DNA from: an uncultured Blastocatellia bacterium
GTDB taxonomy: Bacteria; Acidobacteriota; Blastocatellia; Chloracidobacteriales; Chloracidobacteriaceae
Assembly (NCBI GenBank): GCA_937934745.1
Contig: CALGZC010000016.1
Span: forward strand, 1 to 64,000
Length of the DNA: 64,000 nt
Direction: 5' to 3'
How positions within the stretch are numbered: position 1 is the first letter of the stretch; each line of letters starts with the position of its first letter. Below are positions 50,540 through 54,065 of this stretch, in pieces. The notes under the pieces are model-generated. The model ran no database searches. It saw nothing but the letters and a program-made list of their open reading frames with translations, and had not been told where the DNA came from. The translations under genes and the position numbers were made by a program.

Positions 50540-50800
50540 TTATCTTAGTTTGAGTTGGAATGGGATTTCAATCTTGCTGACTAGTTGCCCAACAGTGCTC
50601 TCGGCATTGGACGCTGTCAAGGACTTCGGTGGGCAGTTGGAGCCGGGCCGCCGGCGTTGCCGCTTACGCCCTGGCGGCCGCAAGCGCATCACGTCAGGTA
50701 ACATCACGCCGCTCAAGCGTAGGTTTGTCAAGGAGCGGCAGCTCGCCAGTCACCACCACGCTGAGCATGACCACCTGATCGGGCGAGGTGGTGTGGGCAG
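50540..50800 (-). pseudogene. Remnant of a TonB C-terminal-like domain
   Basis: On the minus strand two neighbouring frames give pieces that fit together as the end of a TonB C-terminal domain: VVMLSVVVTGELPLLDKPTL in one frame and VSKIEIPFQLKLR with a stop in another. Frame changes separate them and there is no single open frame. TonB domains move energy to outer-membrane receptors. The match rests on pattern only, and the stretch could also be random sequence. Confidence 0.3.
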
Positions 50801-50823
50801 GCCTCTGTCAAAAGCAGCTTCCA

Positions 50824-51560
50824 TCAGGCTTCCACCGGCTGCCGTGCCTGGTCGGCCTCTGTTTCCGAATCAGGAACCGGAGCTGGGTTGCAACTGCTGG
50901 GGCGTTTTCTGGCCGAAGCTTCGAGCAGAAGCTGACCCACTTTGCGATGCAGGGGGCAGCATAGTCACTCAGCGCATGGCTGCGATCGGGATCAATCCCG
51001 GCACGGCCATAAGCCTCCGGCAAGCCTGGCAAGTCTTGGCTGCGCCGCAGCGCCCTGCGAATTGCTCGAAGGTGTTTGGCTGTTGGCCGGTGCGCAGGTA
51101 GGCCCCAACCAGAGCGCATTTGAGCTGGCCGGCCTCCGGGTTGAGTTGAGAGAACTCGCGCCAGGCCGTAATCGGTCTCGCTTCCTGTCTCGCTCTTCCT
51201 GTCCGTTCTCGTGCCCAGTTTGAGCCGCCATCCCATGGCCAGGGTTAGCATCGGCCTCCGCTCCCTGTTTGCGGTGTAGGTTGCCGAGTGCTAGAGCGTG
51301 CTTTGGGCAGTCGGACTTGAGACGGACAACTTGCTTGTACACAGGCTTGGATGCACGCCGCCTGTGGCAGTTGCTGGTGGCGCGTATCGTGCTCGGCGAC
51401 TCTGACACAGTGCGCTACGGCCTCGTCCACGCGATGGCCCCGCCGGGAGCGAATTACCGGGGACGGTGGCCAGCGTCGCCTTTGAGATAGGTCCGTTCGC
51501 TGGGTTCGGGCGACACGTTCATCGCTTTTGTTTTTTCGATCATCGCCGCCTCAAGTTGTC
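50824..51560 (-). pseudogene. Decayed TPR-repeat protein gene
   Basis: Across about 740 bases on the minus strand, pieces typical of tetratricopeptide repeats appear in order but in different frames: LEAAMIEKTKAMNVSPEPSE, then VDEAVAHCVRVAE, KPVYKQVVRLKSDCPKHALA with LGNLHRKQG, then REFSQLNPEAGQL with ALVGAYLRTGQ, and RALRRSQDLPGLPEAYGRAG. At least four frameshifts and several stops are needed to join them. It lies just downstream of a broken Ser/Thr kinase gene on the same strand; kinase and TPR genes often go together in acidobacteria. There is no intact gene in 50480-51653. Confidence 0.45.
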
Positions 51561-51653: not shown

Positions 51654-52499
51654 TTAGGCCTGGCACAGTAGTTTCAAAATGCGCACAACTTCCTCGGCAG
51701 TGGGACGTTCCACCGGCACTTTGTGTAGCATACGCCGGGTAATGTCTTCGAGAACGGGTGGAACATCAGGGGTGAACAAAGCCAGCGGTGGCGGGGAGGT
51801 TTGCAGATGGGCGGTGAGTACCGTTGAAACATTGCCGTCTGGTGCGGTAAAGGGCGGCCGACCGGCCAGGATTTCGTACATGACCACGCCTAGGCTATAG
51901 ATGTCGGCTTGTCCGTTGTAGGGCAGAAAACTCAACCGTTCGGGTGCTATGTATGTTGGTGTGCCGGCAATCAGGCCCCATGTCGCTTCGGGATGGGATC
52001 CGTCTTCGCCCATCAGTTTCGCAAGACCGAAGTCAAGTAGTTTGACGACCTCGCCGGTTGGTGGTCGGTGGAGGAAGATGTTGTCCGGCTTAATGTCGCG
52101 GTGCACGATATTGCTGGCGTGGGCCTTCGCCAGCACCGACGCCACCGGTAAGATAATCTCCAGGCACCGCTGAGTAGAAAGTTTACCCAGCGCCCTCAAT
52201 TCCTGCCTGAGCGTGACGCCGTGCAGGATTTCCATGACGAGGTAGGCAAAGCTGTTGGATGAGAGTCCGAAGTCAAGGATGTTGATGGCGTTGGGATGCT
52301 GGACGCGGCAGGCTGAAATCCCTTCGCGCTTGAAACGTTCGAGTTCTTCCTGAGTGATACGCCCGCTGCGCGGCTGCAAAATCTTGACGGCCACTGCCGT
52401 ATTCAGCGCAAGGTGTGTCGCTTCATAAACAACGCCATAGCCGCCGGCGCCGATCTTTCGTCCCAGGCGGTAGCGTCCGTCCAGTACAGTACCGGGCAA
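51654..52499 (-). CDS. Serine/threonine protein kinase domain, probably a fragment of a broken gene
   Basis: A 281-residue Hanks-type kinase domain with a complete set of motifs: glycine loop IGAGGYGVVYEA, catalytic Lys in TAVAVKIL, HRDIKPDNIFL, LLDFGLAKL, GTPTYIAPERLS and DIYSLGVVMYEILAGRPPF. It covers the whole kinase fold and has no membrane or PASTA region. The only in-frame start is a TTG at 52499 without a ribosome binding site. Upstream the same frame continues for 33 sense codons (helical, EKHQALIRAQEALLHSQ) to a TAG at 52599-52601. It was therefore probably fused to the stalk encoded just upstream. It may be expressed weakly or not at all. Confidence 0.75.
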   Translation of the reverse strand: MPGTVLDGRYRLGRKIGAGGYGVVYEATHLALNTAVAVKILQPRSGRITQEELERFKREGISACRVQHPNAINILDFGLSSNSFAYLVMEILHGVTLRQELRALGKLSTQRCLEIILPVASVLAKAHASNIVHRDIKPDNIFLHRPPTGEVVKLLDFGLAKLMGEDGSHPEATWGLIAGTPTYIAPERLSFLPYNGQADIYSLGVVMYEILAGRPPFTAPDGNVSTVLTAHLQTSPPPLALFTPDVPPVLEDITRRMLHKVPVERPTAEEVVRILKLLCQA

Positions 52500-52503
52500 G
52501 GCT

Positions 52504-52845
52504 TCAGCAAAGGCTGAAAACAGGGTCTGTACGCAGGCCTGTGAGTGTAGCAGTGCCTCCTGCGCACGGATCAGGGCCTGATGTTTCTCGGACAGTTCCT
52601 AGTTTTTGGCTTCTAGTTCGTGCTGAATGCGCAGAAGGCGACTTTTGCATCATATCGCTGATGCCTGTAATTTTGACAGCGTGTTTGAGCAGTGCCCGAT
52701 ACTTGCGGGTCAGTTCTACAAACTCACGTTGCCAATCTTCGGGCGTAGGCAACCCTTCTGCGGCAATTTGCTCGATGGTTGCTAGAACGTCGAATTCGGG
52801 TTCAAAAACCTCCTCGGCGGCAGTCTTGGGCCTGGATTTGCTCAT
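52504..52845 (-). pseudogene. N-terminal stalk of a frameshifted SiaC-linked kinase gene
   Basis: The ATG at 52845 opens a frame that starts MSKSRPKTAAEEVFEPEFDV and contains EDWQREFVELTRKYRALLKHAV and ITGISDMMQ. This resembles the helical stalk found before output domains in proteins encoded next to siaC. After MMQ the frame runs into unrelated sequence. Dropping one base from the A4 run (forward-strand T4 at 52643-52646) moves it into the kinase frame and gives a continuous coiled coil (SRLLRIQHELEAKN), which then meets the TAG at 52599-52601. One frameshift plus one stop split what was probably a gene of about 397 codons (51654-52845). Confidence 0.6.
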
Positions 52846-52854
52846 GCGAACCCA

Positions 52855-53235
52855 TCACGACGGGAGGACAACGAATCGGAAGGGCATCGAAAAGTCCTCG
52901 GCGAATTCCTCACCGTGTTCTTTCATATCATCGTCGTCTTCGCTGTAGTACCAGTTGATCGTGATCGTGCGTCCGAACTGCAGGGCCTGTTCGAACATTT
53001 CCAGAATGGTGATGATGCACTTTGAAGAACTGGTGTTGAAGTAATCGAGACGGAAATGAAACACAATTGGTGTCGAGGAAGTGGTCAGAAAACGGGACAG
53101 CCATTCCAGGACAGGTTGGTAGAAATGCACTGCGTTTTCAGGGTAGGAACTCCCCTCCATGAGAAGAACACCGGTCATTGCGTCAAAGGCGATGCGCGGG
53201 GTCGCCTTGGTTTTCTCAATCAACAGGCTTTCCAT
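52855..53235 (-). CDS. siaC: SiaC-family regulatory phosphoprotein (DUF1987)
   Basis: A 126-residue protein of the SiaC family. The hallmark YFNTSSSKCIITILEMFE is present, with Thr68 at the same number as the Thr phosphorylated in Pseudomonas aeruginosa SiaC. SiaC there is phosphorylated by SiaB and dephosphorylated by SiaA; unphosphorylated SiaC activates the diguanylate cyclase SiaD. ITINWYYSEDDDDMKEHGEEF near the C-terminus is also typical. It ends nine bases before the stalk/kinase locus, so the two formed an operon. No siaA, siaB or siaD gene is next to it. Confidence 0.88.
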   Translation of the reverse strand: MESLLIEKTKATPRIAFDAMTGVLLMEGSSYPENAVHFYQPVLEWLSRFLTTSSTPIVFHFRLDYFNTSSSKCIITILEMFEQALQFGRTITINWYYSEDDDDMKEHGEEFAEDFSMPFRFVVLPS

Positions 53236-53396: not shown

Positions 53397-54065
53397 CTAT
53401 GTGACCGGCCACCGTTGATAGAAGGTGGGCAGTTCAGGCAAGTGGAGGGTGTGACTCAGTTCTAAGACGCGCGCCTGACAGTCCGAACCCGATCCCTGTG
53501 GGGGCGGATGCAGCCGGGCATCACCGCGAACAACGGTTTTGAGGGCAACCAGGGCGCGTTGTGCGCCACGCCGGGCAAACCAGTGCACATACAAACGCAG
53601 GGCATTCCAGGCAATAAACACGTTCGGCCCGGGCAGGAGTCCCATCAGAAGGGTCACGGGGAGGCAGGCAATGTTGAGCCAGACGCCGCGTTCGTGGCTG
53701 ACAAGGCGTGTTTCAAGCCACTTAATCCATTCACTGCGCACAGCAGCGTCAGAGAGTTCCCCGTCGTGAATCAGTTCAACGGCATCAACCTGACCGATGA
53801 CGCGCAACAGGCTTTCACCGGGATGTGTCCATCGTTCTAGCCAGCGCCAGGCATGTTGCACACCACGCCAAAAACGGTTGGGCGGTTCGTGGATCAACCG
53901 CAGGGCTGCGTCATGGGTGCGGTGCGCCTGGTGAAGCACCTTGTTCCAAAAGCCGCGCGGCGGGGTGTCATCGTACGCCGTGAGCATTTCCGGTGGGGCG
54001 TAGAACACCCAACCGCGTCTTCGGCAGCGAATGACGTAGACACGAATGATGCGCGGATGTTTCAT
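53397..54065 (-). CDS. Mit_KHE1-like membrane protein
   Basis: A 222-residue protein. The N-terminal two thirds are soluble, rich in Trp, Arg and His. A hydrophobic segment at about 155-175 (LNIACLPVTLLMGLLPGPNV) followed by FIAWNALRLYVHWFARRGAQ resembles the core of the mitochondrial K+/H+ exchange-related family (Pfam Mit_KHE1), which occurs in bacteria with unknown role. It begins inside the kynU stop codon (4-base overlap) and so is translationally coupled to it. Ion transport is not shown by the sequence. Confidence 0.6.
   Translation of the reverse strand: MKHPRIIRVYVIRCRRRGWVFYAPPEMLTAYDDTPPRGFWNKVLHQAHRTHDAALRLIHEPPNRFWRGVQHAWRWLERWTHPGESLLRVIGQVDAVELIHDGELSDAAVRSEWIKWLETRLVSHERGVWLNIACLPVTLLMGLLPGPNVFIAWNALRLYVHWFARRGAQRALVALKTVVRGDARLHPPPQGSGSDCQARVLELSHTLHLPELPTFYQRWPVT

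Follow-up and report, generated by a model that had tools for sequence, protein, structure and literature searches.

The closest described system is the SiaABCD threonine-phosphorylation pathway of Pseudomonas aeruginosa (PMC7647112, PMC8457831). Here SiaC stabilises the dimer of the SiaD stalk, and phosphorylation of SiaC at T68 prevents this stabilisation (PMC8457831). The contacts between SiaC and the stalk come from a crystal structure, with S82 of SiaD hydrogen-bonded to T68 of SiaC (PMC8457831). In STAS-like partner switches, phosphorylation determines which partner gets bound (PMC8457831, discussion). Proteins of the SiaC (DUF1987) family are widespread, but the sole output that has been worked out is a diguanylate cyclase. 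We searched the open-licence literature for any other SiaC output (histidine kinase or partner switch, adenylate cyclase, Acidobacteria) and found no paper, although a report that escaped us may exist. SiaC appears to have been known so far just for switching on a c-di-GMP-making enzyme.

We analysed a stretch of 64,000 nucleotides from an uncultured Blastocatellia bacterium (the window), in which a siaC gene is followed by a stalk and a Ser/Thr kinase domain. Our main reading, to which we give a probability of roughly 0.7, is that the locus preserves the remains of a SiaC partner-switch branch that had a Hanks Ser/Thr kinase as its output, the stalk being a movable module.

The siaC gene (52855-53235, minus strand) is intact and encodes a protein of 126 aa. 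The product matched PF09345 with E=1.3e-45 (154 bits, against a curated cut-off of 24.5), while it scored below the cut-off of the stricter NCBIfam equivalog 'SiaC' (121 vs 150 bits). Its phosphosite loop reads Y65-F-N67-T68-S69, and N67, T68 and S69 are invariant in the SiaC alignment. In the SiaC tree, this paralogue, the partner of the stalk-kinase, grouped in a clade (support 97/93) with the SiaCs from intact stalk-kinase loci. The preliminary description had proposed a SiaC-family protein with a conserved Thr68, separated by nine bases from the stalk, and we could confirm both points: the ATG at 52845 opens the stalk frame. On the other side of siaC, the gene at 53397-54065 (minus strand) matches PF10173 (Mit_KHE1, mitochondrial K+/H+ exchange-related), and it also lies upstream of siaC in relatives.

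When we examined the stalk-kinase gene, all of it on the same strand as siaC, we observed that it was broken. The 5' part (52650-52845, in the frame of the ATG) encodes an N-terminal helix and the docking stalk up to KITGISDMMQ, which corresponds to K77...S82-D83-x-x-Q86 of P. aeruginosa SiaD. A stalk profile matched at 52642-52833 (E=1.8e-21), and the frameshift ends the match at model column 65. This frame runs to KYRALLKHAVKITGISDMMQK, after which the coding sense switches to a second frame that reads RLLRIQHELEAKN, a stop and then ELSEKHQALIRAQEALLH, and continues into a complete Hanks kinase domain. The +1 frameshift lies inside the docking motif (52645-52656, about 52650), where the DNA alignment shows one base more than in five orthologues and leaves the exact base unfixed. 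The stop is an in-frame TAG (52599-52601) in the kinase frame, at a position that is CGN (Arg) in all five intact relatives of the alignment. The 3' part (51654-52598) covers, by alignment with the intact orthologues, the remaining coiled-coil stalk, a linker and the kinase domain. As had been claimed, this domain is complete and in the same orientation as siaC (PF00069 E=2.1e-49), with all its catalytic motifs present (GAGGYG, VAVK, HRDIKPDN, DFG and APE; GxGGYG, VK, HRDIKPDN, DFG and PPE/APE across the intact orthologues and the window). The suggestion that one repaired base would restore 51654-52845 had to be corrected, since there are two lesions, the extra base at about 52650 and the in-frame TAG at 52601. 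The window genome thus lacks a single open frame for the stalk-kinase, and a search of this genome with the stalk profile found no second stalk-kinase copy.

The next gene downstream is damaged as well. In relatives, the stalk-kinase gene is followed by one for a 741 aa protein with TPR repeats and a degenerate GGDEF domain. In the window only a decayed remnant of it was detected (50727-51550, minus strand), using tblastn with the protein of one relative (G005) as query: one piece with 30% identity over 164 aa including a stop, and two short pieces. Each of the five Chloracidobacterium genomes in which the kinase is intact (G001-G005) has the gene beside it, in two frames in G001. A TPR/degenerate-GGDEF protein was seen near the stalk-kinase in two genera (L048:3578-5803, minus strand, and L046:11859-14126). 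This neighbour, which accompanies the intact kinases of the genus and has decayed next to the broken one, may be an effector or a substrate of the kinase. The window stalk-kinase copy looks like a decaying pseudogene with an intact siaC beside it. The kinase branch was probably inactivated recently in this genome, because the nonsynonymous divergence of the kinase and the adjoining siaC is just mildly raised on the window lineage.

A search for homologues showed that the fusion itself is real. The proposal would have been in difficulty if no genome joined this stalk to a kinase in a single open frame; we found stalk and kinase as one open frame directly after siaC in eight related genomes of four genera (loci L004, L005 and L010-L015). 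Five are Chloracidobacterium genomes and three belong to other genera of the same family. The carriers include Chloracidobacterium sp. CP2_5A, an uncultured Chloracidobacterium, Blastocatellia bacterium SSF51 (G007) and a bin filed as Actinomycetota whose scaffold name contains 'Acidobacteria'. Among the relatives, the kinase domain is under purifying selection (dN/dS 0.03-0.09). The adjacency of siaC and the stalk-kinase exceeds chance, since the intact fusion adjoins siaC in all these eight genomes. In SSF51 and G009, the gene order is siaB, siaC, stalk-kinase and an FHA-GAF-PP2C (SpoIIE) phosphatase; this is a SiaABC-effector set in which the kinase occupies the place of the effector. G008 has a receiver-SpoIIE phosphatase gene upstream of siaC.

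The kinase had been described as standing 'instead of' a diguanylate cyclase, and this wording does not hold. Another contig of the window genome (C31) carries siaC, siaD with a GGDEF domain, siaB and a stalk-histidine kinase in this order. Since one of the two SiaCs of this genome is still paired with a GGDEF SiaD, the kinase adds an output and does not replace the cyclase. The window stalk-kinase itself falls outside the SiaD equivalog, with a kinase domain in place of the C-terminal GGDEF. The third stalk protein of this genome is the docking stalk fused to a histidine kinase, right after siaC-siaD-siaB (L050:6960-7988, minus strand), and G001, G004 and G005 have three stalk proteins each. 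In the SiaC tree, the kinase-partner clade (97/93; Chloracidobacterium and G008) is separate from the GGDEF-partner clade (99/99).

SiaB was present in every genome that bears the stalk-kinase. The expectation that siaB would be encoded away from the window locus proved right, with its one copy on another contig, yet it is adjacent in two relatives (G007 and G009). Each Chloracidobacterium genome has one SiaB above the cut-off, at a locus other than that of the stalk-kinase, and therefore SiaB would have to serve both SiaC paralogues; one Chloracidobacterium genome (G006) yielded neither SiaC nor SiaB. The window genome encodes 12 SpoIIE phosphatases, and no SiaA could be distinguished among the many SpoIIE phosphatases of Chloracidobacterium. 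A weak second SiaB-like match was seen beside a SpoIIE phosphatase at G009:C105:15837-17152, away from the only SiaC of that genome.

We further evaluated whether the stalk is of the SiaD type, as had been claimed. A profile built from 16 stalks of kinase, GGDEF and histidine kinase proteins shows the invariant signature Y...K-x-T-x-x-[SG]-D-x-x-Q-x-x-L. Its best PDB match was P. aeruginosa SiaD (7e6g), in an alignment that covers both published SiaC-binding motifs (RIARISDGFQ and KVARISDRYQ), while phmmer of the PDB with one single kinase stalk gave nothing meaningful. The profile matched 13 of 396 genomes of the phylum. All 13 belong to the 15 genomes in which SiaC occurs, and the 381 genomes that lack SiaC gave no match (Fisher p=1.4e-22), a result that is partly due to the profile members and to the relatedness of the genomes. 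Five genomes outside the profile set (G077, G146, G235, G374 and G397) have their stalk genes adjoining siaC. Each of the eight intact kinase stalks retains the equivalents of the SiaD contact residues K77, I81, D83 and Q86, and Y65, N67, T68, S69, E110 and D114 are kept in the SiaCs that partner these kinases. These conserved contact residues address, indirectly, the stated refuting condition of a stalk with no predicted contact to SiaC. Where P. aeruginosa has the pair R103-D91, the family has D103 and R/K91, kinase stalks included, a charge swap that tracks phylogeny and so is no independent proof. The kinase stalks carry one docking motif, as compared to two in SiaD, and thus a 2:2 rather than a 2:4 assembly would be expected. 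This single motif, and a Gly where SiaD has S82, weigh against the docking reading. In an AlphaFold model of a SiaC-stalk read-through chain (from the G009 locus, with Gly in place of its stops; pTM 0.48), the SiaC fold was recovered (Foldseek matches to chains of 6k4f and 7e6g) and the stalk was predicted as one long helix, but the model does not define how the two dock. The stalk-kinase model, made from a shallow eight-sequence alignment, was poor, with a mean pLDDT of 56. Taken at the level of sequence, these comparisons support placing the kinase stalk with the SiaD docking stalk, in line with the preliminary description.

The same stalk was observed on other enzymes. It heads histidine kinases (L050, L044 and L090), hybrid histidine kinase-receivers (L047 and L095) and, adjoining siaC at L080 in G374, a class III nucleotide cyclase (PF00211 E=2.4e-23). 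A second such fusion in G310 (L098) was recognised by eye and has no Pfam match. The G374 fusion, which lies directly after siaC, is seen at L080 and L059. Outside Acidobacteriota, our comparison consisted of 19 plasmid matches. A plasmid of Azospirillum oryzae, an alphaproteobacterium, carries an annotated SpoIIE-siaB-siaC operon followed by a histidine kinase and a diguanylate cyclase (L065:5396-7107), both with KIAKISDR[LM]Q stalks, that is, two stalk outputs within one operon. The SiaC-stalk arrangement therefore extends beyond Acidobacteriota. Two further arrangements were seen: in G345, siaB-siaC precedes a gene for an EAL-type protein in which no stalk was evident by eye (L061:3192-6016), a possible SiaC link to c-di-GMP breakdown, and there are siaB-siaC pairs on Bacteroidota plasmids of Bernardetia (L066) and Persicobacter (L070), with no annotated stalk effector adjoining them. 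Counting GGDEF, Hanks Ser/Thr kinase, class III nucleotide cyclase and histidine kinase (some with a receiver), the stalk occurs with at least four kinds of catalytic domain. We lean, with somewhat less confidence than for the locus itself, to the broader view that SiaC is a general partner-switch adaptor and not a dedicated cyclase activator, whose portable stalk sits on all of these, so that a single SiaB/PP2C input may act at once, within one cell, on c-di-GMP synthesis, protein phosphorylation and two-component signalling.

The homology with SiaD (PMC8457831) leads us to predict docking of SiaC on the kinase stalk and dimerisation of the kinase. Unphosphorylated SiaC would bind the [IV]-[SG]-D-x-x-Q site of the stalk through its T68 loop and alpha2/alpha3 face, and would stabilise a parallel stalk dimer. 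The dimer would bring two kinase domains together for trans-autophosphorylation, switching the kinase on. Phosphorylation of T68 by SiaB, the SiaC kinase, would undock SiaC and switch the stalk-kinase off, and a SiaA-type PP2C phosphatase would reverse the phosphorylation. In Chloracidobacterium, two SiaC paralogues, one for the kinase and one for the cyclase, would have one SiaB in common. The binding of SiaC, its activating direction, activation through dimers, the phosphatase and any substrates of the kinase are putative.

Could the lesions of the window copy be assembly or sequencing errors in a gene that works? The kinase frame stays open over 314 codons (without an intact stalk) and retains its catalytic motifs. 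However, there are two separate lesions within about 60 bases, the stop differs by two bases from the CGG of the closest relatives, and the neighbouring TPR gene is scrambled over about 800 bases while the outer flanking genes are open, which makes errors highly improbable. A programmed frameshift at the stalk was also considered and rejected because of the additional TAG and the decayed neighbour gene. It is also quite improbable, if slightly less so than errors, that the adjacency is merely historical, with a generic coiled coil fused to a kinase, SiaD-like by resemblance and with no working relation to SiaC. Coiled coils readily resemble one another, and at E=0.12 the profile's best match in the PDB is weak taken alone; but the stalk matches nest completely within SiaC-bearing genomes, K-x-T-x-x-[SG]-D-x-x-Q is nearly invariant, unlike a plain heptad pattern, the adjacency is conserved in four genera, and the SiaC paralogues sort by partner.

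The roles might also be reversed, with SiaC as the substrate and not the controller: the stalk would recruit SiaC, and the Hanks kinase would phosphorylate it at T68 or another site, giving a second Sia input or a feedback loop. Docking would indeed put SiaC close to an active kinase, the siaB gene of Chloracidobacterium lies elsewhere, and the FHA-PP2C protein adjoining the kinase in G007 and G009 would suit a Thr-phosphorylation loop. We nevertheless consider this unlikely, as the known SiaC kinase, SiaB, accompanies every stalk-kinase and is a neighbour in those same two genomes, the related stalk serves SiaD as an output element (PMC8457831), and a stalk shared with GGDEF, histidine kinase and nucleotide cyclase proteins fits control rather than substrate docking.

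If SiaC does control the stalk-kinase, a phospho-Thr switch would govern another Ser/Thr kinase, a bacterial kinase relay via a non-enzymatic adaptor that is directly testable. The common stalk would allow enzymes under SiaC control to be recognised by a simple sequence signature, and would agree with the suggestion of the eLife authors that DUF1987 proteins modulate adjacent proteins. Beyond the broken copy of the window, the larger point is the portability of the SiaC-docking stalk.

Compared with SiaABCD of P. aeruginosa (PMC7647112, PMC8457831), the system described here is alike in the T68 phosphosite of SiaC, the SiaB-type kinase, the PP2C-type phosphatase (at some loci) and the N-terminal helical stalk with its docking motif on the effector. 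It differs in that the effector domain is a Hanks Ser/Thr kinase, the stalk has one docking motif instead of two, the S82 position is Gly in all intact kinase stalks, and siaB of Chloracidobacterium lies at another locus, common to two SiaC paralogues. The siaB-siaC-effector order of Azospirillum is that of G007 and G009, where the kinase is the effector. PknA/PknB-type Hanks kinases share the kinase domain family (the best PDB matches were PknA, E=2.3e-45, and then PknB), but in the stalk-kinase we saw no membrane anchor or PASTA domains, and it has a SiaD-type N-terminal stalk. PknB is known to be activated through dimers. In the STAS partner switches (SpoIIAA/RsbV; HsbA-HsbD, BgrV-BgrR), phosphorylation of a STAS-like protein likewise determines its partner, whereas in our case that partner would be a stalk carried by a Ser/Thr kinase.
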